A stretch of DNA of 64,000 bases, taken from the NCBI RefSeq assembly GCF_016917355.1, contig NZ_CP070304.1, positions 2,728,001 to 2,792,000 on the forward strand, read 5' to 3'. This document shows, in pieces, positions 1 through 30,729 of the stretch. Within the stretch, counting starts at the first letter, position 1. Every line of letters starts with the position of its first letter. The notes under the pieces were generated by a model. The model did not search any database and was not told where the DNA came from. It saw only the letters and a list, made by a program, of their open reading frames with translations. The position numbers and the translations under genes are program-made. The stretch is from Glaciimonas sp. PAMC28666 (lineage in GTDB: Bacteria; Pseudomonadota; Gammaproteobacteria; Burkholderiales; Burkholderiaceae_D).

Positions 1-1
1 A

Positions 2-1528: not shown

Positions 1529-1553
1529 CTAACAGATGACATCTATGAAAACT

Positions 1554-2057: not shown

Positions 2058-2164
2058 TCTGCAGTTTCTCCTTTTGTGAATCCGGAAAAATATTCTCCGG
2101 AGAAACGTTCCAACAAAACCGAAAGCGCCTCCAGTCATCACACAAATCACTTAGAAAAAAGAAA

Positions 2165-3894: not shown

Positions 3895-4215
3895 AGTGTT
3901 CGTAGATGGAGACAATGAACAAGATTCTTTTGTGTATTAGCTTGGATCAATCGATAGGTGGAATATAACAATGCTATGAGAGCCTTATAGACAAAGGGTC
4001 TTTGATTTTGAATATGGAAATGTACGGTCAAAGGTACTGTCAAAAATAAATGCTTAGAGCTTTGCCGCGCTTGTAACCGCCAGTTACTTATCGGTACGCG
4101 GCTCCTAAACGGCGCGTATCTTTCGATTTATCAAGCCAGCACAATCACGTCCGAAATTTCTCCACGGTCCTCGCGGCAGTCTGAACTTGCTTCAAAGGTA
4201 TTTAAGAAATGCGTT
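3895..4215 (+). other. Intergenic stretch between gpD and the DUF4157 gene
   Basis: About 320 bases lie between the gpD stop and the convergent DUF4157 stop. I see no credible reading frame, no RNA gene and no clear stem with a T-run. The region is richer in A+T than gpD and may mark the edge of the inserted cargo. Confidence 0.5.
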
Positions 4216-6141: not shown

Positions 6142-6400
6142 CTTTTCTCATCTTCGCAGCAACATTAATACTTTGATATTAGCTGGAGACCATCATGAAG
6201 CACAACAGATAGTTGGTTAGGCGGATGCATAAGCGCTTAATGTTCAAAAACGACCATATTTGAACAGTCAAAAATCACATGTTTTTGACGTTCAAAAAGT
6301 AGCCTTTAACATCTTGGTCATGCTCATATTTATTCATACCCTTAATGAACGTCTAGAGGCGCGCTTGTATGCTCGTGGACGAGGTCGGGTATCTGAATAC

Positions 6401-6532
6401 AGCTGGCATATCAACATCTCAGGTTGCAAAGCCCTGATTGATGGCGTTCAAGGATTAGCACCGAAAGTCACGCATAACGTCGGCGGCAGCGGATTTACCA
6501 CGCGGATTGAGCTAAAAAGCAAGATTGAATAA
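6401..6532 (+). pseudogene. Remnant of a second gpD gene (late region)
   Basis: The translated segment ISGCKALIDGVQ, then KVTHNVGGSGFTTRIELK, matches intact gpD (VSGFKATIDSVD, KVTHSIGSNGFTTAIELE) closely in sequence and order. A stop at 6530 interrupts it, and the frame continues as AEIEHQ where gpD has AEVERE. Upstream sequence is not recognisable as gpD. This is a truncated, decayed copy left on the far side of the DUF4157 gene. It most likely records the recombination that put the cargo next to gpD. Confidence 0.8.
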
Positions 6533-6587
6533 GCTGAAATAGAGCATCAACCGGGCGCAAGACAATCTGCGGTAATTCCTAAACAAC

Positions 6588-6616
6588 TTGATCTACTCCC
6601 ATTTTGTACATACAAT
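6588..6616 (+). promoter_or_regulatory. Predicted promoter of brnT
   Basis: TTGATC and TACAAT are separated by 17 bases. The -10 box ends eight bases before the BrnT start codon and no ribosome site is visible in between, so the transcript may be leaderless or nearly so. BrnA antitoxins usually repress their own promoter. Confidence 0.5.
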
Positions 6617-6623
6617 ATAGCTC

Positions 6624-6905
6624 ATGGATATTACATTTGATACTGACAAGAACGAACGTAACATCCGAGATCGAGACCTTAGCTTTGAGCAAGCTGCGGA
6701 TTTTGATTTTGCTACCGCGGAAATTGCATTAGATGAACGCAATGATTATGGCGAAGAGCGCTATATCGCGGTGGGATACCTTGGGCAACGTCTCCACGTG
6801 CTATGTTTTACAGAAAGCAACGCCGGAATACGCGTTATTAGCTTTCGTAAAGCCAATCTAAGAGAAGGAAAGATACATGAAAAACCACTTACCTTTCACC
6901 AATAA
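6624..6905 (+). CDS. brnT: BrnT family toxin
   Basis: 93 residues. It is recognised as BrnT, a RelE-fold ribonuclease toxin, from the N-terminal F-D-x-x-K-N-x-x-N pattern, the central FDFATAEIALDERNDYGEERY segment, and VLCFTES with ISFRKANLRE near the end. BrnT blocks translation by RNA cleavage and is neutralised by BrnA. The gene overlaps the downstream brnA by 29 bases, the usual toxin-first arrangement. It belongs to the prophage cargo block, where such pairs act as addiction or anti-phage modules. Confidence 0.92.
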   Translation: MDITFDTDKNERNIRDRDLSFEQAADFDFATAEIALDERNDYGEERYIAVGYLGQRLHVLCFTESNAGIRVISFRKANLREGKIHEKPLTFHQ

Positions 6906-7161
6906 AGAAGGTGAAGTCCGTGAACTAACAGCCGAGGACTTGGCACGGTTTAAACCGGCGACAGAAGTACTGTCTGATTCGCTGTTAAAAAAACTAGGCG
7001 TCAGCAAACGTGGCCCACAAAAATCTCCGGTTAAAGAGCGCATTACCATTCGCTTGTCGCCGGATGTATTAATGCAGTTCCGCGCTACTGGGGACGGTTG
7101 GCAAACACGCATGGATGCCGCATTGCGCGATTGGTTGAAAGACCATGCGTTAACGCATTAA
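6877..7161 (+). CDS. brnA: BrnA family antitoxin
   Basis: 94 residues. The N-terminal half (LTAEDLARFKPATEVL) is the toxin-binding segment seen in BrnA proteins. The C-terminal half (KERITIRLSPDVLMQFRATGDGWQTRMDAALRDWL) is a ribbon-helix-helix DNA-binding domain. It overlaps brnT and should both neutralise BrnT and repress the operon. A shorter, similar N-terminal segment is encoded immediately downstream. Confidence 0.92.
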   Translation: MKNHLPFTNKEGEVRELTAEDLARFKPATEVLSDSLLKKLGVSKRGPQKSPVKERITIRLSPDVLMQFRATGDGWQTRMDAALRDWLKDHALTH

Positions 7162-7191
7162 GTTGACATTACTAGAATGCAAAGGCGCGCT

Positions 7192-7353
7192 ATGTCTAAG
7201 AAAATAAATCCCGAACAACTCAGCGACGACAATCCGGAATGGAGCGCTGAGGACTTCGCTAAAGCGCGCCCGGCCAAGGACGTTTTGCCAGAGCTTTTTG
7301 GAAAGAAGATAGCTGTAGAGATGCTGAAGCGCCCATCCTGGGCGCGTCCATAA
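7192..7353 (+). CDS. Truncated BrnA-like antitoxin fragment
   Basis: 53 residues from an ATG with AAAGG six bases upstream; an ATG 15 bases earlier is also in frame. The sequence NPEWSAEDFAKARPAKDVLPELFG resembles the N-terminal half of BrnA/BrnA-like antitoxins. The ribbon-helix-helix half is missing and the frame stops at SWARP. It follows brnA closely on the same strand. It could be a leftover of a second system or a small decoy or auxiliary antitoxin; no partner toxin is visible. Confidence 0.55.
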   Translation: MSKKINPEQLSDDNPEWSAEDFAKARPAKDVLPELFGKKIAVEMLKRPSWARP

Positions 7354-7377
7354 AAAATCAAACTATCGCTTTTTCTA

Positions 7378-7680
7378 TCATTTTCCGCCCATGTTAAAAG
7401 TCTGCGGCCCGGTAACGTTGCCCATAACCTGTTGCCCAACCTCGCCATACACCACGATATGAACTCCCAAATCAACGGGCGCAACGCCACCGACGCAATC
7501 GAATGCTTGCGCTTTTGCATGCGAATCCAGGGTTCGAAAGCGGGCGATTAATTCAATTTCTTCTTCGGTCAGTGTGAGCATTTTGGCTGACGACAAAATC
7601 TCATGTAAAACTTTGTCCTCGCCCACTTCGCCGGTCACCGCTGACGTGGTGTCGCCATAAAATCCATTCTGTATTGTCAT
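7378..7680 (-). CDS. Regulator-like protein without a DNA-binding domain
   Basis: 100 residues, function unknown. Its second half matches the XRE-family protein encoded at 8945-9409: LTEEEIELIARFRTLD corresponds to LSKDEKELLSGYRGLD, and VGQQVMGNVTGPQTFNMGG to VGQQVTGDIKSPQTFTIGG. The helix-turn-helix part is absent. It could be an interaction partner or modulator of the XRE protein, or the surviving tail of a degraded regulator. It ends convergently with the small gene at 7192. Confidence 0.65.
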   Translation of the reverse strand: MTIQNGFYGDTTSAVTGEVGEDKVLHEILSSAKMLTLTEEEIELIARFRTLDSHAKAQAFDCVGGVAPVDLGVHIVVYGEVGQQVMGNVTGPQTFNMGGK

Positions 7681-7703
7681 GCTTGTCGCGTCTCCAGATT
7701 GTT

Positions 7704-8768
7704 TTAAATTGCTTCAACTGCTTCATCAAGCCATTTCGAAAAGTTGGTGCCAGCAGTTATTTTCACAATCTCAACCCCCAGTGATTTCGCCTCCTTGAGT
7801 TTTGATGGCCCTGCGTTATCACCGATCACCAGATAGTCCAACGTCATTGATACGGTTTTCCTGATCCGCCAACCAGCGTTCTCTGCAAGCTGTTCCATTG
7901 CTTCTCGCTCGGCGCGCTTAAAGCCAGTGAAGAGAATGCTGGTCGCTTCATTTGGAGCAGCTACGGTGATCGTTTTCTTGGGAGGTCGGATCACTTTAGT
8001 GTCGGTACTAACGCTGACGCTACTTAGCTCAGAAAACCAGTCATTAGCAGTCATTATTTCCCCTGTCTCAGCGCGCGTAAGCGAACCAATAATACGATCC
8101 AATTTAAATGTCCGATTCGCCCTTTTTTCAAGGCAATATCCTTCGACATAGGCATTCCCTTGTCCATTGGTGGCGGCTGTGCACACCTTGACATCACGGT
8201 CGGCAATCTCCCCCTCTGCATTTTTGTATGTAAAATTAATCAGATCGGGTAACTGAATAGAACCCGTGGCTCGATGCGTTTTTTCATTTGCGCGAGATTT
8301 AGTCAAAGCCCGCGTAGCAACGACGTTGTCATTAGCCCATCGTGCTATCACAGCTTTTTCTTTAGCAATCCGGTCGTCCGCCTTCTCTTCGATTTTTCTA
8401 TCATCGCGTGAAACGGTTTTGCTTGTTTGTGAAAGGGGTACGAGCGACTGAGTGCCCTCTGATACGTCCACGTCGCGCGTCCGTCGAGGCACGAAAGACT
8501 TTTTAACCGACAGCGATTCTTCAGGCGTCATTCCTGCTATTTCGGCTTCATCACGCTTCATTGCCTGGTTGATGTGATGCCAGATTGAGAGCACGGGTAA
8601 TCCAAGTTTACGACATTTTTTTCGGTCTGCGATTCCGTGCGCCAACCAATATAGGCTAACTGAACTAGCCACCAGCCCCACAACTCCAAGGGCACCAAGA
8701 AATATGCCCGTGAAACCAATCCAATAGTAGAGAACAATAAGTGCGATGACTCCCAATATCCAAATCAA
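7704..8768 (-). CDS. Membrane protein with WYL-like and BRCT regions
   Basis: 354 residues from a TTG start with GAGG seven bases upstream. The frame is open 18 codons further, but those residues are polar and lack a ribosome site. The N-terminus has about two hydrophobic segments (residues ~2-44). After a charged linker, a WYL-like region includes LINFTYKNAEGE, EGYCLEKRANRTFKLDRI and ends LTRAETGE. The C-terminal ~75 residues form a BRCT-type domain (ILFTGFKRAEREAMEQLAENAG, then DYLVIGDNAGPSKLKEAKSLG). WYL domains bind nucleic acid or nucleotide ligands; BRCT domains bind DNA ends or phosphoproteins. The combination is known from soluble proteins, but a membrane anchor is unusual. Confidence 0.7.
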   Translation of the reverse strand: MIWILGVIALIVLYYWIGFTGIFLGALGVVGLVASSVSLYWLAHGIADRKKCRKLGLPVLSIWHHINQAMKRDEAEIAGMTPEESLSVKKSFVPRRTRDVDVSEGTQSLVPLSQTSKTVSRDDRKIEEKADDRIAKEKAVIARWANDNVVATRALTKSRANEKTHRATGSIQLPDLINFTYKNAEGEIADRDVKVCTAATNGQGNAYVEGYCLEKRANRTFKLDRIIGSLTRAETGEIMTANDWFSELSSVSVSTDTKVIRPPKKTITVAAPNEATSILFTGFKRAEREAMEQLAENAGWRIRKTVSMTLDYLVIGDNAGPSKLKEAKSLGVEIVKITAGTNFSKWLDEAVEAI

Positions 8769-8944
8769 ATTTGTTTCCTCTTTCAGGTCATAGGACGAAA
8801 AAAAAATACACCACTCACACAAGTGATGTATTCGCGTCTATCTCATAGCGAGTACAAATACTAACCCAATATTTGGGTAATTTTTCTAAGCCTTTTCCCT
8901 AACTTTTTGTGACAAAAGTTGATATTTTTTTGCTTTTTTTAGGA

Positions 8945-9409
8945 TTAATCTGAGACCGGCGGCTTCTTTTTCCTGGCCCCGCCGATAGTGAATGTCTGCG
9001 GTGATTTGATATCCCCAGTAACTTGCTGACCAACGTTGCCGTGAAGTTTCACGTGGGTTGTATTACCGGTGGTTGGTGTCGCACTCATCCCGTCAATCAT
9101 GCCGAGGACGCCAGCTTTCCCGCGTATATCTAACCCGCGATAACCGCTCAATAATTCTTTTTCATCTTTACTTAATGCTGATGATGCCTGCTCACCAGTG
9201 AGAATATATTGCACATCAACGCCGATTGCTGCCACCGCTCGCAAATAGAGCGCGTCGGGTGCACGTTCGTCTTGTTCGTACGAAATTTGAGTTCGCTTTG
9301 TTACTCCTCCGACAGCGGAAAAATCCTCTTGATTCATACCCAGACGTACGCGTTCACTTTTCAGCGCATCCCCAACTGTGCTCCTATTTTTACTTTCATG
9401 CATTGACAT
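8945..9409 (-). CDS. XRE-family repressor-like regulator
   Basis: 154 residues from ATG 9409; ATG 9403 is also possible. A helix-turn-helix of the Cro/CI type covers about residues 12-65 (LKSERVRLGMNQEDF, TKRTQISYEQDERAPDALYLRAVAAIGVDVQYIL). The C-terminal tail holds VGQQVTGDIKSPQTF, shared with the protein at 7378. It is divergent from a row of small early genes, and a strong opposite-strand promoter overlaps its start, as expected for a phage immunity repressor (P2 C-like role). The role is inferred from position. Confidence 0.85.
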   Translation of the reverse strand: MSMHESKNRSTVGDALKSERVRLGMNQEDFSAVGGVTKRTQISYEQDERAPDALYLRAVAAIGVDVQYILTGEQASSALSKDEKELLSGYRGLDIRGKAGVLGMIDGMSATPTTGNTTHVKLHGNVGQQVTGDIKSPQTFTIGGARKKKPPVSD

Positions 9410-9431
9410 GTGCAATTTTCTTCACTATAGT
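9403..9431 (+). promoter_or_regulatory. Early rightward promoter over the repressor start
   Basis: TTGACA and TATAGT are 17 bases apart and read towards the small genes from 9466. The -35 box lies inside the beginning of the XRE gene and is flanked by TGCA-N8-TGCA (9399-9414), a candidate operator for that repressor. Confidence 0.65.
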
Positions 9432-9465
9432 TATGCCATCCCTAGCAATTACCAATCATACCATT

Positions 9466-9669
9466 ATGAAAACCTTAACCAGAATGCGCCGCACGCCAAA
9501 AGGGCTGACGTCCAAACCGCTCGGCATTAGATTGACGCCTGATGAAGTCGCGGAAGTGGAGCAGCTGGCCACGAACGAGCAGCGTTCTCGTGCATGGTTT
9601 TTACGCTACTTGATCCTGCGCGGCCTAAGCGACTACAAGCACGACCTTGCAGCTAAACCATACCCATAA
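9466..9669 (+). CDS. Small ribbon-helix-helix-like protein (early phage gene)
   Basis: 67 residues from ATG 9466. An in-frame ATG at 9433 lies immediately after the predicted -10 box and the frame extends further upstream antisense to the XRE gene, so 9466 is preferred. The core KPLGIRLTPDEVAEVEQLATNEQRSRAWFLRYLILRGL has the strand-helix-helix pattern of CopG/Arc-type DNA-binding proteins. It is the first gene rightward of the repressor, a position where P2-like phages place Cox-type regulators. That functional parallel is inference. Confidence 0.7.
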   Translation: MKTLTRMRRTPKGLTSKPLGIRLTPDEVAEVEQLATNEQRSRAWFLRYLILRGLSDYKHDLAAKPYP

Positions 9670-9680
9670 AGGACGCCATT

Positions 9681-9875
9681 ATGTATGCCGACATCAAAAG
9701 AATTCGCAACAACCGCGTCATGGTCCGCATGGATGAATACGAGCATGCCATCGTTGTGTCGCTGGCTAACTATCAAGGCGAATCGGTCGCCACTATCGTA
9801 AGGCAGATCGTTATTAAGAAGGCCCTGGCGATGCTAGCGGAGGACACCCATAGCGTACCCCGGACCGCAGCATAA
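9681..9875 (+). CDS. Small Arc/ribbon-helix-helix-like protein
   Basis: 64 residues, not assigned. The segment NNRVMVRMDEYEHAIVVSLANYQGESVATIVRQIVIKKAL resembles a ribbon-helix-helix fold (RVMVRMDE as the strand and two following helices). The start is preceded by AAAGGACG at a workable distance. It lies 11 bases after the previous small gene on the same strand, so both are likely transcribed from the promoter at 9403. Confidence 0.7.
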   Translation: MYADIKRIRNNRVMVRMDEYEHAIVVSLANYQGESVATIVRQIVIKKALAMLAEDTHSVPRTAA

Positions 9876-9912
9876 ACGAAGACAGCGATTAGTATCTTAT
9901 AAGCAGCCGACA

Positions 9913-10101
9913 ATGCCCCTAGCAGATACCCCGTTAGACGAAAATGAGAGCGACATACTGGAGCGGTTCCGCCAGCAGTATGGTCTGCCGGACTTACAAC
10001 AGGCGACCGAGTGGCTGTTGAAGTCTGAGATACGCATACGAGCCTGTGAGATTACCGGCAGAAACCGGGCCTTGTATCCGGTGGAGAAAAATTCTACATG
10101 A
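9913..10101 (+). CDS. Small phage protein upstream of ogr
   Basis: 62 residues, unrecognised. The middle (ESDILERFRQQYGLPDLQQATEWLLKSEIRIRACEITGR) is mostly helical and could again be a small DNA-binding or adaptor protein. Its TGA stop overlaps the ogr start (ATGA), so the two are probably co-translated. No strong ribosome site is seen in front of the chosen ATG. Confidence 0.6.
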   Translation: MPLADTPLDENESDILERFRQQYGLPDLQQATEWLLKSEIRIRACEITGRNRALYPVEKNST

Positions 10102-10355
10102 GAGTAATCAGCTTGCCTTGCCCCCATTGCCAGCACCGTGTGCGCGCCGCCAAAAGCCGCACGATGTCGAGCCTGATGAAAGAGATCACGTACATGTGCC
10201 AGAACCCCGAATGTGGTCATACCTTTGTGGCGAGTCTCGAAGTCTTGCGCACGTTGTCGATGTCCGCTATTCCGAACCCAGATGTACGGATTCATTTGTC
10301 GCAGCACGTCCGTAATGCTTGCGCCAATCAACTGGCGTTATTCAAGAACGAATGA
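10098..10355 (+). CDS. ogr: Ogr/Delta-type zinc-finger late gene activator
   Basis: 85 residues. Four cysteines (C8, C11, C34, C39; PCPHC and CQNPEC) form the zinc site of the P2 Ogr / P4 Delta family, with the family-typical SSLMKEITYMCQNPECGHTF between and after them. Ogr proteins activate the late tail, head and lysis promoters of P2-like phages by contacting RNA polymerase. In P2 the gene lies directly after D; here it sits among the early genes. A ten-codon frame (10363-10395) follows and is probably not meaningful. Confidence 0.92.
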   Translation: MRVISLPCPHCQHRVRAAKSRTMSSLMKEITYMCQNPECGHTFVASLEVLRTLSMSAIPNPDVRIHLSQHVRNACANQLALFKNE

Positions 10356-10432
10356 GGGCACCATGACCGCGCATCACCTTACCGCGCCGCCGTAATACTC
10401 CGCTAGCGCGCTTCACCTTTTACGTTGTACCC

Positions 10433-10480
10433 GGTCATGCCTGATTTCAGGCATGCGGGATTTGCTCACCCTGAAATAAG
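10433..10480 (+). repeat. 48-bp repeated leader element, copy 1
   Basis: The element opens with a perfect inverted repeat, CATGCCTGA-TT-TCAGGCATG, followed by CGGGATTTGCTCACC and TGAAATAAG. It ends ten bases before the GTG start of the gene at 10490. A second copy lies at 11107-11154 in the same position relative to another small gene. It may act as an operator, a translational control hairpin or a recombination-derived module. Confidence 0.75.
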
Positions 10481-10489
10481 GAAAACACT

Positions 10490-10939
10490 GTGGAATATAC
10501 GAATAAGCAGGTGCTCAAGGATCAGGAAAATACGGAAAACAAAGTCTTAGCGGGCGCTAAAGATGACATCACATCCATCCTTTGCGTAATTCAAAAATTC
10601 AAGTTCGTCGATCAAGTTGAGACCCGCCATCTTATTGATTGCATTAAGAAACAATCCGACATCAGAGACCCCAATAAGACGGTAGATATCACATTGCTCG
10701 TTACGGAAGCCGATGATCATTCGTTCTTTTCTGACGGCACGCATATCGGCGATTTGCGGGTGAAGTTTGTTGAGAATAGCGGTGTCGAATTCCGCGATTT
10801 CCATTCTGGCGATGAGCGTTGTTTTCATAGCATTCCTTCAATTGTTATAAAAGGTATATCGCGACCGGAGCTAATCGGTTACGCGCAAAAGTATATGCAC
10901 AAGACGCTCCTTAAAACCGTCCCCTCGGGAGCAAGTTAA
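10490..10939 (+). CDS. Hypothetical prophage protein
   Basis: 149 residues from a GTG with AAGGA about seven bases upstream. No family is recognised. The protein is acidic and mixed helix/strand. It contains segments VDITLLVTEADDHSFFSDGTHIGDLRVKFV and a C-terminal GYAQKYMHK. It is the first gene after the 48-bp leader element, so its expression may be controlled by that element. It is transcribed with the early phage genes. Confidence 0.6.
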   Translation: MEYTNKQVLKDQENTENKVLAGAKDDITSILCVIQKFKFVDQVETRHLIDCIKKQSDIRDPNKTVDITLLVTEADDHSFFSDGTHIGDLRVKFVENSGVEFRDFHSGDERCFHSIPSIVIKGISRPELIGYAQKYMHKTLLKTVPSGAS

Positions 10940-11106
10940 GTAAATGGCGCTAGTTTGCCTTTGGCGGCTTATGCCTGTTTTGCGGATTTTTCTCCTGCCT
11001 CGGTCTTCTTGGCCGCGCTTGGCGGCTTGAAGAAAACGGACGTCTGTTGCGCTAGTCAGCTTGTCGGATGGATCGTTAGCAATTTTTAAACTTGACCCGC
11101 ATGTCT

Positions 11107-11154
11107 GGTCATGCCTGAGTTTCGGCATGCGGGATTTGCTCACCTTGAAATAAG
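11107..11154 (+). repeat. 48-bp repeated leader element, copy 2
   Basis: It matches copy 1 (10433-10480) except for about five bases, mostly in the loop, where the hairpin arms are CATGCC and GGCATG. The block CGGGATTTGCTCACC is identical. It ends eight bases before the ATG of the small gene at 11163. Bases 10940-11106 before it hold no gene that I can support. Confidence 0.75.
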
Positions 11155-11162
11155 AAAAAACT

Positions 11163-11348
11163 ATGAAAAGCACAATTGTCACGCCCGTCCAGGATCAATT
11201 AAACGATGCTGCCATTCCACCGATGTTGGTTTTATCGGCCTCCAGGTCATCGGATCTCAACAGTCCGCGCTGGGGTGATCTAAAGCGTTATAGGGGGAAA
11301 TCTATGGGTAATTTGGCGCTCGTCAAGCAGGCGAGAGGAGGGCTCTAA
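11163..11348 (+). CDS. Small hypothetical prophage protein
   Basis: 61 residues, unrecognised, with a basic C-terminal half (RWGDLKRYRGKSMGNLALVKQARGGL). It begins directly after the second 48-bp leader element, the same context as the gene at 10490; support comes from that repeated context. It is followed after two bases by the next small gene. Confidence 0.5.
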   Translation: MKSTIVTPVQDQLNDAAIPPMLVLSASRSSDLNSPRWGDLKRYRGKSMGNLALVKQARGGL

Positions 11349-11350
11349 TT

Positions 11351-11569
11351 ATGCCGACAGACCTAACACTTTTGAGGATCAAAAGTATCACGATCGAACC
11401 TGTCAGAACCATTGTTCCTAACGAACCAGGCGACGCGTTTATCTCCTTTCAACGCATCGTTTTTCACTTTCATGATGGTAGTAGGAGCGAAATGACGATT
11501 CATCTGGATGCCGGTATGCACGCATTAGCCCTCGGCGACATAGTGACTCACGACAAGGTGTCCGAATGA
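11351..11569 (+). CDS. Small hypothetical prophage protein
   Basis: 72 residues, unrecognised. The pattern of strands (LRIKSITIEPVRTIV, AFISFQRIVFHFHDGSRSEMTIHL) suggests a small beta-rich domain. A GAGGAGGG ribosome site lies just upstream inside the end of the preceding gene. Its stop overlaps the start of the next tiny gene as ATGA. Confidence 0.6.
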   Translation: MPTDLTLLRIKSITIEPVRTIVPNEPGDAFISFQRIVFHFHDGSRSEMTIHLDAGMHALALGDIVTHDKVSE

Positions 11570-11664
11570 AAAAAGTCCTTCAGAATTTTGGATCAGGGCT
11601 GCTATGCGGTTTCGTCATGTTTGCCCCGGCCTTTGCGGTCGGGTTCGGTTGGGTCAAGGGCTAG
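11566..11664 (+). CDS. Tiny membrane protein (32 residues)
   Basis: The peptide begins MKKVLQNFGSGLLCGFVMF and ends in GWVKG, with one hydrophobic segment. It overlaps the previous gene as ATGA and ends four bases before the next start. The tight packing in the operon is the main reason to call it a gene. Function unknown. Confidence 0.5.
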   Translation: MKKVLQNFGSGLLCGFVMFAPAFAVGFGWVKG

Positions 11665-11667
11665 GTC

Positions 11668-11841
11668 ATGTTCACTAAAAGCGCCTATGCCCTCCTGATA
11701 GACAAACTAGACTTACGCAACTGGTTTGTGTCTCGGTCGCATTTGTTAAATGACAGCCATCGCTTGGCGGTGGGCGAGGTGCTCGATGAGCAACTGGCGC
11801 AATGTATTGCGCGACTGGGTGGCATGGCGGGGGTCTGGTAA
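11668..11841 (+). CDS. Small hypothetical prophage protein (57 residues)
   Basis: Reads MFTKSAYALLIDKLDLRNW through to ARLGGMAGVW. No family recognised. It starts three bases after the tiny membrane protein, and its TAA stop overlaps the next ATG (TAATG), so it fits a translationally coupled chain leading to gpA. Confidence 0.5.
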   Translation: MFTKSAYALLIDKLDLRNWFVSRSHLLNDSHRLAVGEVLDEQLAQCIARLGGMAGVW

Positions 11842-12197
11842 TGGGCGTCTCGCTGATTGATCACCATCCATCGTTTATGCCGGTCACGGACTTGTTCGCC
11901 GAGTGGGATGGCGCCACCGCCACACTGACCACGCCAGATCATGCAAGGGCCAAATTAATAGCTGCGCGCAAGTTGATCAAGCCACGTCAGGATGCGGCGC
12001 GCCTGCAACGCCTGACGGCACAATCGTGGGGAACCACACCGGAGCATGCACGGCGCTATGTGCTGTTTGTGGCTGGCTTGCCGATGACACGATGGGAAAG
12101 TCCAATTCATTCTTTTACCTCGTCGGAACGGGCCGCGATCAAGGCGGCGGTCGTGGCCTCGGTCGGGATGTTTGAACGGGTGATGCATGCAGTCTAA
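11841..12197 (+). CDS. Hypothetical protein upstream of gpA
   Basis: 118 residues starting at the ATG that overlaps the previous stop. The frame opens 13 codons earlier, but the coupled ATG is preferred. Mostly helical, with a basic middle (HARAKLIAARKLIKPRQDAARLQRL). Its end overlaps the gpA start by 11 bases. Small proteins of this kind commonly precede gpA in P2-like phages of Burkholderiales. Function unknown. Confidence 0.65.
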   Translation: MGVSLIDHHPSFMPVTDLFAEWDGATATLTTPDHARAKLIAARKLIKPRQDAARLQRLTAQSWGTTPEHARRYVLFVAGLPMTRWESPIHSFTSSERAAIKAAVVASVGMFERVMHAV

Positions 12198-14019
12198 ACA
12201 CGTCGTTCTGCCTGCCCGTCAACGGCATCTCACTTTCTTACAGTCGGAGCGCTTTGCGCCGGAGTTGGCCCGGTTGCCTTACAAATGGCGCAAGCGCGTC
12301 ATCGGTCAGGCGCTCGACAAAATGGCGTGGTCCTCCTGGTACAAAATTTATGAGTCGATGGCGACGGATTTTGTGCGCGAGTTTGCTGACCGCTATGTGC
12401 CCGCTGGTGTTGATCTGTCGCAGCACGACAGGGACATTGTGGCGACGGCAAAGAAAGCGGCGGCGCATGTCGTCGGGGCGCTGTGGGGCGCGCAGTCGAA
12501 CTTGCATGCATTGCAGGTGATCCGCTGCGAATGTGCGGAATACGGGATCGATGCACCGGAGTTTGACGAACTGAAAGACGTGATCGCACGGGCCGTCAAT
12601 CCGCACTGGTGGCGCGGCCAGTTGCGTAAGCGCATCGGTCGGGCCTTTGAGGCGGGTAACATCCGCCTCGGCTACGTCCATTATCACGGTGAACCTTACG
12701 CAAGCCACGACACGGTCATCGCCAGACTGGCCCAAAACCGCCGCAACGAACTGGCGCTGGACGGACAAAAATTAGAAAACGAACTCGGTCAGCAATTCAC
12801 GCTGGCTGAACTGGCCGGTACCACCACGGCAAACAAGGCGATACGACGAGGAGAGTTGATGCTGCGATTAAATGGCTTTGAAACCATTGCGAAAGAACTG
12901 GGCGATGAAGGCTTGTTTGTGACGTGGACCTGTCCTTCGCACTTTCATGCGACGTTGCATAGTGGTAAGCCGAATCCGAAATATAGCGGGGCAACACCAC
13001 GGGAAGCGAATGCGTATCTGCAAAAAGTGACAGCGCGTTTCCGGTCCGCATTGGCACGACGCGGGATTGGGTTATATGGCTTTCGCATTGCCGAGCCACA
13101 CCACGATGCAACGCCGCACTGGCACATGCTGTTATTTGTTCGACCGACCACCCACTATAAAACGCCGCACATTGTAGACGTGGCTAGCCGCACAACGCGC
13201 TTGATGAAGCGCTACGCGTGGACCGCTGAACGGGGCGAACCGGGTGCGTTTGCACGCCGTTTGGAAGTCGTCCGGATCGACTGGCATAAGGGCAGTGCAG
13301 CCGGATATATCGCGAAATATGTCTCTAAAAATATTGACGGCGCACATGTCGGCGACCATAAAACAAAGGAAGGGTATGTCGTCGTCACCGATTGCGTGGG
13401 CGACCAAGAGTTAGTCCCGTCAGCGCGGATTGATGCATGGTCCGCGTGCTGGGGGATCCGCCAGTTTCAGCAATGGGGTGGCGCACCGGTAACGGTCTGG
13501 CGTGAGTTACGTCGAATAAAAGACGACATGCTGGTGGAAGCACCGGAACCGATGAAGCGTGCATGGAATGCAGCGCAAAAGATCGAAGGGGAAAAACGCG
13601 CTGACTTTGCCGATTATCTGCGAGTACAAGGTGGTCCCCTCGTGCCACGTAAAAATCTGATCATCACGCTGGCGAAAGATGTCACAACCTGCATCGGGCG
13701 TTATGGCGAGACGATTAAATCCACACCGTACGGTGTCCATTGCGCGGCCTTATATGGCGTGGTGTTCAAGTCGGTACGGCACATCTGGACGCCGGTCGCA
13801 TCGGCCACCACCGCATGCGACGGGGCGGCAGTTGCCCTTCCTCGGACTCGTGTAAATAACTGTACGCACCCCGATCCGGCACCAAGAGAAAAACAGCCGG
13901 ACTGGATGATTCCTGATGTGAATAGACTTTCCCAGGACGCCAAATCTACGCTCATTGATGCATGGGCGGCGCTGAAGGCCTGTGCGTATCCGCGAATTTT
14001 TGATGAAAGGAAGGAATGA
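12187..14019 (+). CDS. Replication gene A protein (P2 gpA-like rolling-circle endonuclease)
   Basis: 610 residues. P2 gpA nicks the origin and stays covalently attached to start rolling-circle replication. The metal-binding HUH motif is visible at residues 304-313 (PHHDATPHWH), and the paired tyrosines at 374 and 378 (GYIAKYVSKN) match the YxxxY active site of the family. Length is somewhat shorter than P2 gpA (about 760). It overlaps genes on both sides. In P2 the replication origin lies inside this gene; no origin was located here. Confidence 0.93.
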   Translation: MQSKHVVLPARQRHLTFLQSERFAPELARLPYKWRKRVIGQALDKMAWSSWYKIYESMATDFVREFADRYVPAGVDLSQHDRDIVATAKKAAAHVVGALWGAQSNLHALQVIRCECAEYGIDAPEFDELKDVIARAVNPHWWRGQLRKRIGRAFEAGNIRLGYVHYHGEPYASHDTVIARLAQNRRNELALDGQKLENELGQQFTLAELAGTTTANKAIRRGELMLRLNGFETIAKELGDEGLFVTWTCPSHFHATLHSGKPNPKYSGATPREANAYLQKVTARFRSALARRGIGLYGFRIAEPHHDATPHWHMLLFVRPTTHYKTPHIVDVASRTTRLMKRYAWTAERGEPGAFARRLEVVRIDWHKGSAAGYIAKYVSKNIDGAHVGDHKTKEGYVVVTDCVGDQELVPSARIDAWSACWGIRQFQQWGGAPVTVWRELRRIKDDMLVEAPEPMKRAWNAAQKIEGEKRADFADYLRVQGGPLVPRKNLIITLAKDVTTCIGRYGETIKSTPYGVHCAALYGVVFKSVRHIWTPVASATTACDGAAVALPRTRVNNCTHPDPAPREKQPDWMIPDVNRLSQDAKSTLIDAWAALKACAYPRIFDERKE

Positions 14020-14207
14020 TGAAATTGCTTATGCAGATGTGCGTCTTTTTATTTATGTTTTTTGCAATATGGGGGATTTCTGATGCCCTGCACTTGATGC
14101 TTGATCGATGGAAACTGCGCTTCCATACCGTGATTAACGGGGTGCTGACTGGGGCAGTGATGTACGGCCTGGTGAACGGAATGTTGTGGGGAGCTGGGAT
14201 TGGATAA
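14016..14207 (+). CDS. Small membrane protein downstream of gpA
   Basis: 63 residues with two hydrophobic segments (about 5-25 and 40-60) separated by a short basic stretch (DRWKLRFH). The ATG overlaps the gpA stop. This holin-like layout is common in small phage membrane proteins, but there is no lysis cassette here and the function is unknown. Confidence 0.6.
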   Translation: MMKLLMQMCVFLFMFFAIWGISDALHLMLDRWKLRFHTVINGVLTGAVMYGLVNGMLWGAGIG

Positions 14208-14403
14208 AGTTATACCTGACATTGGCGCGATGGTCGAATTTGATAGTGATCACGGTCGGCAAACTGGTGTCGTGATTGCAATCAGACGCGATATTACTAA
14301 CGCAGAGCTTTGTGCCACGGTCGCGGTCGGCGATGAGGTGGGTCTCACCACAATATCGGTCGCCTTATGCAGATGGGACCGCCGATCAAAAAATATTCTG
14401 TGA
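14200..14403 (+). CDS. Small hypothetical prophage protein
   Basis: 67 residues from a TTG start with GGGGAG upstream, overlapping the end of the preceding gene by eight bases. The sequence has strand-rich segments (GAMVEFDSDHGRQTGVVIAI). No family recognised. Support is the overlap and the ribosome site. Confidence 0.5.
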   Translation: MDKVIPDIGAMVEFDSDHGRQTGVVIAIRRDITNAELCATVAVGDEVGLTTISVALCRWDRRSKNIL

Positions 14404-14452
14404 AAGATTATCGATGAGTTCAAATCAATTAATAAATACAGGAGGTGTCACC

Positions 14453-14707
14453 ATGCGCAACCATCAGGAAAAAATACCCGTCCAAATAAATCAAAGGTTT
14501 ATACGGTTGCCCCAAGTACAGCTAATGGTGGGTTTTTGCAAAACAATGATTTACGCCAAAATTAAAGAGGGTATATTTCCGCGCCAAATCAAACTGGGTC
14601 GTATTTCCGGATGGGTTGAATCGGAGGTTCAGGACTGGATTAATCAACAGATTGAGGAACGGGATGTCACGCCGTATAAAGCTAGTCGGAGGCAATCGCG
14701 TGATTGA
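14453..14707 (+). CDS. AlpA-family phage regulator / excisionase-like protein
   Basis: 84 residues from an ATG with a near-perfect AGGAGG seven bases upstream; the frame is open further upstream without support. The core RFIRLPQVQLMVGFCKTMIYAKIKEGIFPRQIKLG, then ISGWVESEVQDWI, is the winged-helix pattern of AlpA proteins. These activate or control integrase/excision functions in P4- and CP4-57-type elements. Its place on the integrase side of gpA supports a role in the excision decision. Confidence 0.88.
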   Translation: MRNHQEKIPVQINQRFIRLPQVQLMVGFCKTMIYAKIKEGIFPRQIKLGRISGWVESEVQDWINQQIEERDVTPYKASRRQSRD

Positions 14708-14858
14708 TGATTTTCTTGGAAGTTTAATTGCTCCAGTTTTCCAATGTTTGAAACAATTTTTTCGCTTTTGGCTGGCCATCAACATTGTTGAAGAGCGGGC
14801 TGGTGTTGGCGTTTGCAACTTTTGCGAGAGCAGTATTGACCGCTCTTCATCGATACAC

Positions 14859-14886
14859 TTGCAAAAGTACGTCAATGACGTATAAT
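14859..14886 (+). promoter_or_regulatory. Promoter of the HigB/HigA-type operon
   Basis: TTGCAA and a perfect TATAAT are separated by 16 bases. The -10 box ends six bases before the toxin ATG, so transcription probably begins at or next to the start codon and the message would be leaderless. The 180 bases before it hold no supported gene. Confidence 0.65.
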
Positions 14887-14892
14887 TCAGGT

Positions 14893-15207
14893 ATGTACAC
14901 AGTCTCCGAAACAGCGATATTCCAACGCTATGCTAGCGAAATATGGTCCGAAGATGAACGAGTTGCTTTCATTAACTGGATTGCCAATAATCCACTTTCT
15001 GGTGATGTCATCCCCGGAACGAACGGTATGCGTAAGGTGCGATGGGCTGGTTCAGGAAGAGGAAAGCGCGGCGGCGCTCGTGTCATCTATTACAACATGC
15101 TTGAGAATGGTCGGATTTGGTTGATTATTGCTTATACAAAAGCAAAATTTGATAATTTGCCCGCGAAATTTTTGAACAAACTGAAGGAGGAAATTGATCA
15201 TGGATAA
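14893..15207 (+). CDS. RelE/HigB-family toxin
   Basis: 104 residues. The sequence FINWIANNPLSGDVIPGTNGMRKVRWAGSGRGKRGGARVIYYN is the signature of a HigB/RelE-type mRNA interferase subgroup that is always followed by an XRE-type antitoxin. A start six codons earlier (14875) is in frame, but it would overlap the -10 box. It overlaps the antitoxin gene by eight bases. Confidence 0.9.
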   Translation: MYTVSETAIFQRYASEIWSEDERVAFINWIANNPLSGDVIPGTNGMRKVRWAGSGRGKRGGARVIYYNMLENGRIWLIIAYTKAKFDNLPAKFLNKLKEEIDHG

Positions 15208-15490
15208 GGAACTAGAGCAATTCCAAGCTGATTTACTTCAATCGGTAAAGGAAATGAAAGCAGGGAAGGTTGCGCGCTCCACCGTTGTTGCTGTCTCGGA
15301 GATTGCTAAGGCTCGAACACAATCGGGCTTGTCGCAATCGCAGTTCGCGATACTTATGGGTGTTTCTGTGCGTACCTTGCAAGAATGGGAGCAGGGCCGC
15401 CGTAGTCCATCAGGTGCAGCGAGAACGTTATTGAATATAGCTTTGCGTCATCCAGAGGTGTTGCTGGAAGAGTCACAGCACGCGGCATAA
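15200..15490 (+). CDS. HigA/NadS-type antitoxin with helix-turn-helix
   Basis: 96 residues from an ATG with AAGGAGG nine bases upstream. The helix-turn-helix region is IAKARTQSGLSQSQFAILMG-VSVRTLQEWEQGRRSPSG, at about residues 36-73. This subgroup of antitoxins (N-terminal FQADLLQSVKEMKAG) pairs with the RelE/HigB toxin encoded just before it. It should bind the toxin and repress the shared promoter. Confidence 0.9.
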   Translation: MDKELEQFQADLLQSVKEMKAGKVARSTVVAVSEIAKARTQSGLSQSQFAILMGVSVRTLQEWEQGRRSPSGAARTLLNIALRHPEVLLEESQHAA

Positions 15491-15613
15491 TTATTACTAC
15501 ACGGTGCTGGGACTGCGGCAAAGTCGCCCCTAGCGGAAAATTACCCGCCGCCGCGGTTCCCTTTGTTGATAAGGGATCGCCTATGGGAAAAACTGCTAGC
15601 GAACCCTAGTAAC

Positions 15614-16645
15614 TTATGTGCCTAGCCCCACCCAGGGTGGTTTTTTCAGCAGAAAGGCAGCGTTGTTTATGCTATAAGTTCGTTTCAGTTTACCTGTGAT
15701 CTCGTAGACAAGTTGAAGTGCTGCTTCGTAATTCTCCACAGCCTCGAAAATTTCTATGTCGGCTTCCCCATATCGGAGCTTGATCGCTCGATGCTCTTCA
15801 GGCAATTTTGCTAAGACCGACTTCGTGACATTCAACCCAAATTTGCCTGAAGCTGTGGATAGTTTAATGAGGTTATGGCCCCGCGATTCGCTCTCGTTTT
15901 GCCTCAGGAATACTTTGAACGATTTCTCGACTGCCAGATGTAGCTCCCAGCATCCAACCGCAGCCACGGCAGTATCTAAGCTCAATATATCGGCCACTGC
16001 TTTTTCGATATGCCACCACACTCCAGCTGCCATTTTTTCTGCTTCATCTGGAAGGTCCGCTGCAGCTTGAAGAGCAAGGTTTATGCTCCTAGTCCTGGAA
16101 ACGATGAGATCCACACGCTTCTCAATTTTAATGCGCTCACCTTTCGGAAGTGCATCAAAATTGGGGCAGGTCGGGAAGAAAGATTTCAAATTTTCCGATT
16201 CATGGATCGAGTCTGGGAATGTTATCCAACAAGTTTCACCTTCGACGTGTACTTTTGTCACCGCGACTGGTACTTCAATTTTGATCGGCGTCCGGTACAT
16301 TAGCACTATGCCACTGAAAGTTTCACGAACGACCTCGAAGTGGGCGGTGCCATAGCGTTCTTGATACCATTCGCGAATTACAATGACTAAGGCCGTGAAC
16401 CACTCTTTTTCCAAGAAGTTCTCTTTCGAGTCGTTAAATGGCAGTTTCTCAATGCCATCCTTAACAAACCAAATCGCAGACTGGAGAGGGCGCTTGTTAA
16501 GCGGGAGGTTGTTCATCGCAAAATTTGAGTCAAACAGCTCGAGCCAATGGCTGCCAACTTTTACCAATTCTTCCAGATCAAATTTCATTTCGACCTCCAC
16601 CGAGTCTCCTATTTGGTAACCATCATTAAGTTTTAATTTTAACAA
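15614..16645 (-). CDS. Hypothetical protein with a HEPN-like C-terminal region
   Basis: 343 residues, otherwise unrecognised. Residues about 230-262 (GCWELHLAVEKSFKVFLRQN, then GHNLIKL) resemble the conserved core of HEPN domains. The classical R-x4-6-H nuclease motif is not obvious, so catalytic activity is doubtful. It is transcribed alone, towards the toxin-antitoxin operon and next to integrase. This edge of P2-like prophages is known to carry variable anti-phage genes, so a defence role is a reasonable guess only. Confidence 0.6.
   Translation of the reverse strand: MLKLKLNDGYQIGDSVEVEMKFDLEELVKVGSHWLELFDSNFAMNNLPLNKRPLQSAIWFVKDGIEKLPFNDSKENFLEKEWFTALVIVIREWYQERYGTAHFEVVRETFSGIVLMYRTPIKIEVPVAVTKVHVEGETCWITFPDSIHESENLKSFFPTCPNFDALPKGERIKIEKRVDLIVSRTRSINLALQAAADLPDEAEKMAAGVWWHIEKAVADILSLDTAVAAVGCWELHLAVEKSFKVFLRQNESESRGHNLIKLSTASGKFGLNVTKSVLAKLPEEHRAIKLRYGEADIEIFEAVENYEAALQLVYEITGKLKRTYSINNAAFLLKKPPWVGLGT
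15628..15646 (+). terminator. Terminator after the HigB/HigA-type operon
   Basis: A short stem CCACCC-A-GGGTGG (realistically a CCAC/GTGG stem with a small loop) is followed by six T. It overlaps the last codons of the convergent HEPN-like gene. Confidence 0.55.
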
Positions 16646-16666
16646 CTAAATTTTATATGTGCAATC

Positions 16667-17887
16667 TCAGATCAGATCGACGTACTCGTCGTTTCTTATG
16701 GTCATCTCGGGAATTTTATCAATCCAGTCCGCCCATATTTGCAGCATCTGCCGACGTTCTGTCAAATACTCAGCATGGTTGTAAGCGGCTTTAGTCTTGT
16801 TGTCTTCTACATGGGCCAATTGGCGTTCAATCCATTCCGTTCGATAGCCCATTTCATATAACTGCGTCGAGGCCGTAGCGCGAAAGTCATGTCCAGTCCA
16901 TAACCCGGAACTGTAGCCCATATTTTCCAGCGCACGATTGATTGTGGTCGCGCTCATAACGTCACTCGGACGACGAAAATTCGGAAATAGCCACTCACCA
17001 GCGCCGGTAATTCTCTTCAACTCTTCCAAAATAGCTACCGCTTGTTGAGGCAACGGTACCCAGTGCGTCCGGCGCATTTTCATGCGTTCTGCAGGAATTT
17101 TCCATTCTCCTGCCACCAGGTCGAACTCGTTCCATGATGCTTTGCGTAACTCTACCGTACGCACAAAGGTATAGAGTATCAGACGCATTGCAAGAACTGT
17201 TGTCCGGTTACCGCCGTATTCTCTGACCCTTGCCAAAAAATCGCCGATATCTTCCCTTGTCATCGCTTTGCTATGGTTAACCTTTGGTCGATGCAGCGCA
17301 CCTTTTAGGGCCGCAGCCGGATCCCCATCGGCACGTAAAGTGACGACCGCATGGCGAAATACGGCAGAACACCACTGACGCAACATAAGTGCGTAGGAAG
17401 CCGCTCCACGTTTCTCCATAGTTTGCAGAACGTCGAGTAAGTGAGCGGCCGTGACACTTCGGATTGGCAAACGTCCGATTTTAGGAAACGCGTTTTGCTC
17501 GAATGCGCTGGTCATTTGCTTAAGAGAGTAGGGCGTCAGCTTGTCCGCTTTCTTATCCAGCCATTCGCGGGTGACAGCCTCGAATGTAGTGGCCCGCGAA
17601 ACGGCTTGCCGTAATTTGTCTGTTTGCTTTTCGTGTGTGGGATTAATCCCCAGCTTGACCATTTCACGAGCGCGTTCCCTCTCTCGTCGTGCTTCAGAAA
17701 GTGAGATCGCAGGATATTCGCCAATAGTGTAGCGACCGTCTTTTTCTGGTGTTAGCCAGAAACGATAGCGCCAATATTTGGAACCGGAAGGGCGAACCTC
17801 CAAGTACAAGCCGTTACCATCTTGAAGAATGTAAGGTTTGTCGGTCGGTTTGGCGGTGCGGATTTTTGTATCAGTGAGTGATGGCAT
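16667..17887 (-). CDS. Prophage integrase, P4-type tyrosine recombinase
   Basis: 406 residues. The N-terminal arm-binding domain (LTDTKIRTAKPTDKPY, DGNGLYLEV) is of the DUF4102 type. The catalytic domain shows Arg243 (FVRTVELR), His333 and Arg336 (GHDFRAT), His359 (QLAHVED) and the probable nucleophile Tyr369 (AAYNHAEY). This family usually targets tRNA genes; here the junction is the start of trpG. It is encoded on the same strand as trpE, 175 bases downstream of the trpE stop. A 10-bp inverted repeat abuts its start codon. Confidence 0.96.
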   Translation of the reverse strand: MPSLTDTKIRTAKPTDKPYILQDGNGLYLEVRPSGSKYWRYRFWLTPEKDGRYTIGEYPAISLSEARRERERAREMVKLGINPTHEKQTDKLRQAVSRATTFEAVTREWLDKKADKLTPYSLKQMTSAFEQNAFPKIGRLPIRSVTAAHLLDVLQTMEKRGAASYALMLRQWCSAVFRHAVVTLRADGDPAAALKGALHRPKVNHSKAMTREDIGDFLARVREYGGNRTTVLAMRLILYTFVRTVELRKASWNEFDLVAGEWKIPAERMKMRRTHWVPLPQQAVAILEELKRITGAGEWLFPNFRRPSDVMSATTINRALENMGYSSGLWTGHDFRATASTQLYEMGYRTEWIERQLAHVEDNKTKAAYNHAEYLTERRQMLQIWADWIDKIPEMTIRNDEYVDLI

Positions 17888-17932
17888 ACCGGATAACGAG
17901 GATTTGTGTCCTGTAGGTTATCCGGTTTTTTT
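17888..17932. promoter_or_regulatory. Hairpin with T-run abutting the integrase start
   Basis: ACCGGATAAC (17888-17897) and GTTATCCGGT (17917-17926) form a perfect 10-bp stem; AGGA/TCCT can extend it inside. On the plus strand a run of seven T's follows the stem, giving terminator form, but no plus-strand gene ends here. On the minus strand the stem ends directly against the integrase ATG, so it could hide the start codon. It may also be a protein-binding or attachment arm site. Confidence 0.7.
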
Positions 17933-17987
17933 GTTGCTGTCAGTAAACTTTAGTGAACGTCTAAGGATACTATCGCTAGGTTCTACG

Positions 17988-18062
17988 GGGCAGAGAGGCG
18001 AAATGTCGAACGATTACGAGTGCTGCTGAACGTGAATGATAGTTATCGATCATGAGTAACAT
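17988..18062 (-). pseudogene. trpG: 5' fragment of trpG cut by prophage insertion
   Basis: The ATG overlaps the trpE stop (TGATG), as expected for trpE-trpG coupling. The first eight codons read MLLMIDNY, identical to the usual N-terminus of betaproteobacterial and pseudomonad TrpG ([14 protein letters not shown]). The frame then reads HSRSAALVIV and stops at 17988. TrpG is the glutamine amidotransferase subunit of anthranilate synthase. The rest of the gene should lie beyond the left end of the prophage, outside this window. Confidence 0.85.
18039..18062. other. Prophage-host junction (attachment site region)
   Basis: Host sequence can be followed through codon 8 of trpG, and phage sequence begins at about 18,038. 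The shared core is therefore expected within this stretch, probably including ATGATCGATAACTA. The opposite junction is not in the window, so the core length cannot be set. Confidence 0.75.
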
Positions 18063-19576
18063 CAGATTTCTCCATCCAGACCATCTTGCACTTGTTCGGC
18101 GGCGCGGAGGACTGCGCGGGCTTTATTTTCGGTTTCTTCCCATTCGGTCTCAGGTACCGAGTCAGCGACAATACCGGCGGCGGCTTGCACATACAGCATG
18201 CCGTCTTTAATGACACCGGTGCGTATCGCGATGGCGACGTCCATCTCGCCACCAAACGATAAATAGCCGCAAGCGCCGCCGTAAATGCCGCGTTTGGTTA
18301 ATTCCAGTTCGTCGATCACTTCCATCGCCCGCACTTTTGGTGCGCCCGAAAGGGTGCCGGCGGGGAAGGTGGCTTTGAGGACATCCAGATTGGATAAGCC
18401 TGATTTCAACACGCCTTCGACGTTGGACACAATGTGCTGCACGTGAGAATATTTTTCGATGACCATCTGATCGGTGACTTTGACACTGCCTGTTTCGGCA
18501 ATACGCCCGATATCATTGCGGGCCAGATCAATCAGCATCACGTGTTCCGCGATTTCTTTTGGATCGGCCAATAGCTCAATGGCTAACTGTTCGTCGCGCT
18601 CTGGCGTGGAGCCGCGTGGACGGGTTCCTGCCAGCGGACGGATGGTGACTTTACGTTTTCCATCAGCGTTTGCGGTCGGCGCGGCGGTTTGCTCGTTGCG
18701 GACCAGAATTTCTGGCGATGAACCAACAATTTGCATATCGCCAAAATTGTAGAAGTACATATAAGGCGACGGATTTAACGACCGCAATGCGCGATACAGC
18801 ATCAGCGGTGAATCGACGTAGGGCTTTTTGATACGCTGGCCAATTTGGACCTGCATCAAATCGCCCGCCATAATGTATTCCTTGGCTTTGGCAACGGCTT
18901 TAAGATAATCCGGTTTTTTGAATTCGCGGATGGTCTCTGTCCGTACGGATGCGGATGTCACCGGCGCATCGGCCGGACGGCGCAACATGGTGCGCAATTC
19001 TTTCAAGCGCTGGCGCCCTTTGGAAAACGCTTCAGGCTGGGTCGGGTCGGTATACACGATCAGATACAGTTTGCCGGACAGATTGTCGATGACGGCTAAT
19101 TCTTCGGTTAGCAGTAGCTGAATGTCGGGCAGGCCCAAATCATCTTTTGGGGCTGTGTTCGCCAGGCGCTTTTCGATGTGACGCACCGTGTCATAGCCGA
19201 AATAGCCAGCTAGCCCGCCGCAAAAACGCGGCATGCCGGGACGGGTCGCAACCTTGTAGCGGGATTGAAATTCGCTGATAAAGTCGAGCGGATTGCCTTC
19301 CAGGCTCTCGATGATCTTGTCATTCTGAACGACCTCAATGCGAGTGCCGTAACTACGCAGTAGCGTTGAGGCAGGCAAGCCGATGAAGGAGTAACGTCCA
19401 AAGCGCTCACCACCAACCACGGATTCGAGCAAGAACGTATTTTTGCCAGTTTGTTGGGTTTGCGCGAGCTTCAGATACAGCGTTAACGGGGTTTCGAGAT
19501 CAGCCAATGCTTCGGCGATCAGGGGGATGCGGTTGTAGCCTTGTGCGGCCAGCGATTTGAATTCGAGTTCGGTCAT
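18062..19576 (-). CDS. trpE: Anthranilate synthase component I
   Basis: 504 residues, normal length. TrpE makes anthranilate from chorismate with ammonia from TrpG, the first step of tryptophan synthesis. The LLES tryptophan-feedback motif is at residues 49-52. The chorismate-binding C-terminal domain includes [27 protein letters not shown], and [22 protein letters not shown]. It is preceded by a leader peptide with clustered Trp codons and a T-run region. The next operon gene, trpG, is interrupted after eight codons by the prophage. Confidence 0.98.
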
Positions 19577-25678: not shown

Positions 25679-27214
<1,536 letters not shown>

Positions 27215-27301
27215 GAGTTTGCACGGACATTAAGCGTCCACACTTATCGGTGTGTTAGTTAGAAGAAGAACAGTCATCATTAGGTAGGTGCTAATCAGGA
27301 C

Positions 27302-27378: not shown

Positions 27379-27399
27379 CGTGATAGATGTACGATTTAT

Positions 27400-27847: not shown

Positions 27848-30729
<2,882 letters not shown>

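Follow-up and report, generated by a model that had tools for sequence, protein, structure and literature searches.

Results

The trpE end of the junction

The window analyzed here is a stretch of 64,000 nucleotides from a Glaciimonas genome that consists of a single contig of 5.23 Mb (G000:C1:2728001-2792000). On the host side of a junction in this window lies trpE, encoding anthranilate synthase component I (18062..19576, minus strand; PF00425, 3.3e-86; PF04715, 1.6e-34), whose 3′ end reads TGATG. The ATG at 18062 overlaps the trpE end and opens a stranded trpG start (17976..18062, minus strand), a frame of 28 residues in which the first eight, MLLMIDNY, are TrpG-like and the remaining 20 are foreign. 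Translation of this segment therefore confirms a preliminary description of the region, in which trpE was read as passing through TGATG into MLLMIDNY and then into a diverging frame with a stop. The same description had placed an integrase just beyond the stranded start, and a gene for a 406-aa P4-type tyrosine integrase indeed begins at 17887 on the same strand (16667..17887, minus strand; PF13356, PF22022 and PF00589; phrog_1, 4.6e-70), 88 nt from the stop of the stranded frame.

The integrase carries the arm-type, central and catalytic domains of the P4 type. Residues R243, H333, R336, H359 and Y369 are invariant in the integrase alignment, and we read them as the conserved R-H-R-H-Y catalytic residues. 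The phage half of the attachment site attR (17888..18045, minus strand) spans the interval from the core to the integrase. It contains an inverted repeat (17888-17897 and 17917-17926) and paired repeats, ACCGGATAAC and ACAGGACA, that are present in the left arm too.

Upstream of trpE, at window positions 19800-19911, are nine copies of TTAAT, the first seven spaced exactly 13 nt apart, which are possibly an operator array; an RNA element search that included the array gave no Rfam match at gathering scores near trpE. The window also holds a complete rRNA operon with tRNA-Ile and tRNA-Ala (25679-31015) and a TPP riboswitch (38657-38774), both ordinary.

Gene content of the prophage

The prophage occupies window positions 1..18045 and runs on leftwards to about position 2706203 of the contig, with genes for portal, terminases, capsid, baseplate and sheath and a regulator pair. 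The window opens within the tape measure gene, of which it holds the 3′ part (1..1528, plus strand; phrog_28, 2.2e-45 on the window part); the 945-aa product starts before the window at L007:14691 and matches PF10145 (5.3e-57 on L007:14691-17528). A tail protein gene (2165..2674, plus strand; phrog_76, 1.3e-61) and a P2 gpD-like tail protein gene (2671..3894, plus strand; PF05954, 1.4e-12; phrog_52, 4.7e-137) come next. Further along are a P2 gpA-like replication initiator (12187..14019, plus strand; PF05840, 1.1e-75; phrog_91, 1.7e-148) and an AlpA-like protein (14276..14707, plus strand; PF05930, 1.8e-14) that is a candidate directionality factor. The virion genes present comprise the portal (phrog_68), TerL, TerS, the major head protein, connectors, baseplate, fibre and sheath (phrog_23). 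A P2-type head, a contractile tail and gpA replication genes thus occur in one element, as in P2-like phages (Peduoviridae), and by its gene content the prophage is complete-looking and P2-like, the label it had been given beforehand.

Some of its genes are less expected. A 641-aa frame on the minus strand (4216-6141) has an eCIS_core domain (PF13699, 6.4e-10), an odd passenger for a P2-like phage. Another prophage gene (7704-8822) combines WYL and BRCT domains and is matched weakly by PADLOC models of WYL regulators. At the left prophage end, divergent from the trpG gene described below, is a pair encoding an HTH protein and an M78 peptidase (L006:11712-12586); the HTH_31 match of the former falls below its cut-off, and the pair matches CapH/CapP models weakly. 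A PADLOC search of the prophage gave weak regulator-type matches only.

The far junction opens an intact trpG

The whole genome contains one TrpG match over the TIGR00566 cut-off, at 2705651-2706211 on the minus strand, approximately 22 kb left of the window. Two further matches, in frames of 393 and 528 aa, are below the cut-off and are probably other glutamine amidotransferases. The gene over the cut-off is opened by the left prophage junction (G000:C1, approximately 2706195-2706240), which lies outside the window, reads ATGCTACTGATGATCGACAACTATGACTCC and begins an intact TrpG of 187 aa. The frames that follow in the same left flank read as trpD and trpC from their sequence. Hence the duplicate of the trpG start that had been predicted for the far junction exists. 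Of the two outcomes entertained beforehand, a full TrpG rebuilt at that junction or a cell lacking TrpG, the first holds at the level of sequence, and loss of TrpG in the lysogen is ruled out by the one intact copy. The sole match over the cut-off being this rebuilt gene, the search gives no second, intact trpE-trpG pair elsewhere in the genome.

The longest stretch over which the two junctions are identical is an 8-bp core, ATGATCGA, at 18046..18053 (minus strand) in attR and at 2706195-2706202 of the contig, outside the window, in the left junction. The core-to-core distance is 39,851 bp, giving a prophage of 39.85 kb. Because the junction copies around the core differ at three of 24 positions, it is the 8-bp identity that places the crossover point.

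An empty site is present in all four congeners examined (G001-G004, taken from a search for relatives), in which trpE runs into trpG through TGATG with no insert. This is the comparison with prophage-free relatives that had been proposed, and it shows an uninterrupted trpE-trpG in each. A chance match of MLLMIDNY is thereby ruled out, because trpE overlaps an intact trpG in these four genomes and the remaining trpG of the present genome lies approximately 40 kb off on the same strand. Both junctions, the empty sites and the rebuilt gene agree in placing the prophage inside the 5′ end of trpG, where it splits the trp operon. The phage attachment site attP deduced from both junctions, ATGCTACTGATGATCGATAACTAT, matches the opening 24 nt of the G003 trpG exactly, which suggests, without proving, that the phage-carried trpG start was copied from that of a close relative.

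Related integrases occupy the same site in many genera

The integrase used as a single query gave no confirmed relative in collections of genome contigs and viral contigs, and a profile was therefore needed. A second case comes from another genus of the same family (G232), whose integrase is 84% identical over the aligned part and sits at the same trpG site, with an intact trpG approximately 40 kb further on. Over much of their length the prophages of the two genomes can be aligned in blocks, with nucleotide identities of 68-80%. In all three arms compared (the attL arm of this genome and the arms of G232), AACAAAATCAATGGGTTAGAAC stands 4 nt before the ATG. In G232, trpE ends approximately 0.9 kb before the trpG-start copy (L190; G232:C1, about 3241330-3242220); as the last part of this interval is an arm very like the attL arm, we read the interval as the likely remnant of an earlier tandem element.

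Searching IMG/VR with a pattern for the trpG start gave 117 stretches, and in 13 of these an integrase instead of trpG comes next (two are split, one has it at +924). In L138, a 10-kb element is bounded by trpE, integrase and trpG. Among the best 80 of 89 matches in a profile scan of GTDB, the exact trpG start precedes the integrase by 165-432 bp in 40; a relaxed start pattern adds eight, three of which (L228, L237 and L257) match the start less closely and lack a trpE within reach. Within the same 80, trpE lies within 3 kb upstream in 31. Six loci (L195, L217, L223, L225, L231 and L234) were judged by eye, and the remaining ones are at other or unread sites, some with too little upstream sequence. 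Record titles of exact-pattern loci include Aquabacterium, Rhodanobacter, Pseudoxanthomonas, Oceanimonas, Acidithiobacillus, Pseudomonas and a Geobacter MAG. A trpG start with an integrase on a contig of an Opitutaceae MAG (L252) reflects either wide transfer or a contaminating contig.

We then asked for trpG in 40 genomes, comprising 36 of the 40 exact-pattern loci (L235, L240, L250 and L252 were left aside) together with L195, L225, L226 and L238, the first three of which have trpE but no start pattern. A full-length, stop-free TrpG match is present in 39 of them, G732 having none. It lies on the same contig and strand, 2.5 to 110 kb downstream of the integrase, in 29 genomes and on another contig in 10, so that in these 10 it cannot be tied to the junction. 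That the gene is intact in 39 of the 40 is not in itself evidence that it functions.

Not all of the elements are large. Four elements of 5-9 kb, among five stretches fetched (the fifth being L449), encode an AAA_25 or DUF3987 protein and resemble satellites; PADLOC gave one weak match on these small elements. A record of Acinetobacter phage TPWB-05 (L443, 4001-4237) ends in the first 78 TrpG residues, annotated as a phage glutamine amidotransferase, and this fragment is probably host sequence that follows a rebuilt start.

In a tree of 42 integrases, 15 at trpG are separated from 14 beside tRNA genes by a branch with support 100/99; these counts include near-copies and leave out thirteen unlabeled rows, four of which (YeP5, L042, L045 and L050) fall on the trpG side. 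The L042 integrase sits behind the end of ychF, and by eye L045 and L050 look the same as L042. Yersinia phage YeP5 (L187) has its integrase in the trpG branch, yet no trpG start upstream; at 3300-3650, upstream of the integrase, this record carries ATGACTATTCTGAGTGAAGATAATTAT, perhaps a modB-type start.

Integration at tRNA genes is usual, though not defining, in the P4-type superfamily, and the site here is trpG instead. Twenty-nine integrases from 294 genomes of the family (L038-L066) include 14 with a tRNA in the locus, one with the exact trpG start (L038) and one with trpE and a truncated start (L053). Another 29 matches from the phylum (L273-L301) have a tRNA within 600 bp upstream in 21 cases and the exact start pattern in none (0/29); one of them (L274) has trpE upstream without the start pattern. 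The preliminary view, which called the start of an anabolic gene an unusual target, needs one correction: trpG is not a one-off, since this integrase branch uses the site in many genera.

Other target genes

Three enteric loci carry the start RILLSN ahead of the integrase, with the end of TruD upstream, and in all three of these genomes surE is intact and over its cut-off. Two Stutzerimonas/Pseudomonas loci carry the start KIIHIDC, and both genomes have intact IMS-family genes; this start is probably that of dinB. The end of ModA precedes the site in L242, whose target is probably modB, judged from that end and from a start read by eye. Three Yersinia integrases of the group (L229, L232 and L267) lie behind the end of a murein endopeptidase (MepA-type) gene, which was tested for L229 and read by eye for the other two.

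Arms and leader of the rebuilt trpG

A paired repeat of the form ACMGGAYAACMTACMGGAYA occurs in both arms, at −74 in attL and at +136 in attR, as would be expected of arm-type integrase sites. The leader that precedes the rebuilt trpG in this genome is AATCAATGGGTTAGAACAAATATG. For a wider comparison, 30 trpG loci were fetched from the checked genomes and one, an uninterrupted copy (L407), was set aside. A leader near AATCAAnAGGWTA, i.e. AATCAANAGGTTA, at −21 to −9 was found in 26 of the 29 rebuilt loci (at most four mismatches in 12), as against none of the 22 relatives whose trpE lies within 300 nt and one of the seven without trpE nearby (L032). By distinct sequence the count is 23 of 26 (four of the 29 rows being identical), and on the contig of the integrase it is 19 of 21. 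This test is partly circular because the consensus was derived from the same rebuilt loci. The stricter pattern TCAAnRGR occurs in 14 of 30 rebuilt loci; among relatives it is present in 1 of 29, and among shuffles in 1.3%. The AGGWTA of the leader is placed where a Shine-Dalgarno sequence could act.

A similar leader precedes surE in two of the three enteric loci, L450 (AAATCAAGAGCTTACGG) and L452, and is less clear in L451. The leader therefore seems to be tied to the element rather than to trpG alone.

Discussion

Proposed mode of integration

These observations are best explained by a P2-like temperate phage that, very probably, integrated at the 5′ end of trpG by means of its own P4-type tyrosine integrase and left trpG rebuilt at the far junction. 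Its circular form, with the joint ATGCTACTGATGATCGATAAC, would bring an attP in which a phage leader precedes a phage copy of the trpG start (ATGCTACTGATGATCGATAACTAT). Recombination within the ATGATCGA core would strand the host ATG behind trpE, and the remainder of trpG would receive a leader, an ATG and about six codons from the phage, with the protein sequence preserved. The leader would then serve as a ribosome-binding site, and trpGDC would be transcribed from phage DNA. Such a lysogen would make TrpG, yet trpG would no longer be translationally coupled to trpE or transcribed together with it until excision by the integrase and AlpA restored the overlapping trpE-trpG.

The part of this scheme most open to another explanation is the leader, which might be an integrase binding site and nothing else, with no part in translation. 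Its fixed distance from the core and its recurrence before surE are what a recombination site would show. Against this, AGGWTA stands about 9-13 nt before the ATG, a possible Shine-Dalgarno place, and both roles may coexist; we regard an exclusively recombinational leader as unlikely, if worth keeping in view.

The fate of trpGDC expression invites a further question. A scan of the left arm for sigma-70 promoters found one site, compared with 1.6 expected in shuffles, a count no better than chance that yields no usable promoter. One might accordingly suppose that the rebuilt gene, though intact, is expressed poorly, and that the strain needs tryptophan or another glutaminase. The left arm without a convincing promoter and the 40 kb that separate trpG from the trpE side favor this silencing, which we nonetheless judge improbable: the frame is intact here, a full trpG is found in 39 of 40 other genomes checked, an AGG-type motif lies in the leader before the rebuilt start, and MLLMID is still encoded by the phage codons.

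Accidental insertion by homologous or illegitimate recombination through short trpG homology, with no dedicated site, would fit the short junction identity (8 bp exact; three mismatches over 24 bp) but is scarcely credible when the same junction occurs with related integrases in many genera (exact pattern in 40 of 80 loci), the integrase behind the stranded start, and when distant integrases of the superfamily often adjoin tRNA genes (14 of 29 and 21 of 29, and the tree).

Site-specific integration at trpG remains the preferred reading. A 40-kb virus can, it appears, sit in an amino-acid operon without evident loss of the enzyme by bringing its own gene start, and the trpG branch provides integrases whose target within a housekeeping gene is both defined and conserved. 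As the site recurs widely, in prophages, in small satellite-like elements and in a tandem insertion, it may have shaped the organization of the trp operon in many Proteobacteria.

The trpE-trpG interval in Pseudomonas

The interval between trpE and trpG is described as a pyocin hotspot (PMC13075995) and as a usual tailocin site (PMC5909648), and the R2 pyocin has been placed there (PMC7344871); one study states that its isolates have no tailocin genes between the two (PMC8319346). R/F-pyocin and tailocin clusters resemble the present element in being phage-derived and in occupying the same interval. Tailocins have tail genes without capsid, terminase and integrase, whereas the prophage described here has all three and is not a tailocin.

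A pyocin-type record from P. aeruginosa (OQ658366) carries AATCAAGAGGTTA before trpG, and in P. caricapapayae a stranded start and an integrase follow lysis- and tail-type ORFs, as judged by eye. We tentatively suggest, as an idea with rather more against it than for it, that the integrase group is specialized on the starts of protein genes (trpG above all, surE as well and, probably, dinB and modB). Its elements would carry a portable leader and first codons, splitting operons and re-wiring downstream genes with the protein unbroken, and its prophages would have founded the Pseudomonas pyocin and tailocin clusters at trpE-trpG, AATCAAGAGGTTA being a fossil phage arm. If true, this history would explain why tailed-phage derivatives are found repeatedly at trpE-trpG. 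The leader is also found within four mismatches in 20 of 29 Pseudomonas loci fetched, including two of the five with trpE within 300 nt; being this widespread, trpE-adjacent loci included, it may be ancestral or native there and not a phage fossil. The link between the prophage site and the hotspot is plausible, if unproven, and the site offers a testable reason for the tailocin hotspot.

Comparison with known systems

The prophage shares with P2 and other Peduoviridae its portal, terminase, capsid, sheath, baseplate, gpD-like and gpA-like genes, and differs from them in its P4-type integrase and its trpG site; P2 itself integrates at other sites. SXT-type ICEs integrate at the 5′ end of prfC and supply a new 5′ end for this target gene. 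They are alike in this element-supplied 5′ end and differ in being conjugative elements with prfC as the target. In a case of altered host expression, an HK022 prophage at torS causes the host gene to be transcribed from a phage promoter and affects host physiology (Carey et al. 2019, PMC6814406); the abstract of that study describes upregulation of a host gene and, in contrast to the present case, not the rebuilding of a gene start. That genomic islands reconstitute the genes they enter has been stated in general terms (PMC12884075), in a paper whose main text does not mention trpG, and a strain-variable region adjoins trpG in X. arboricola (PMC4686621). Among the literature matches listed, from a search with subscription journals mostly outside it, no paper describes trpG-specific integrases.

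The closest parallel is offered by the dusA-associated integrases, where prophages and islands replace the 5′ end of dusA with their own sequence, with imperfect direct repeats (21-bp consensus) and putative promoters before and after integration (Farrugia et al. 2015, PMC4482086). As there, the element at trpG enters at the 5′ end of a protein gene and supplies the replacement, with the frame restored. The target differs, being here the second of two overlapping genes in a biosynthetic operon, and the likeness drawn here is one of mode. Integration at a gene start is therefore already known from dusA; what is new to us is the size of the trpG group and a leader that seems to travel with the element.
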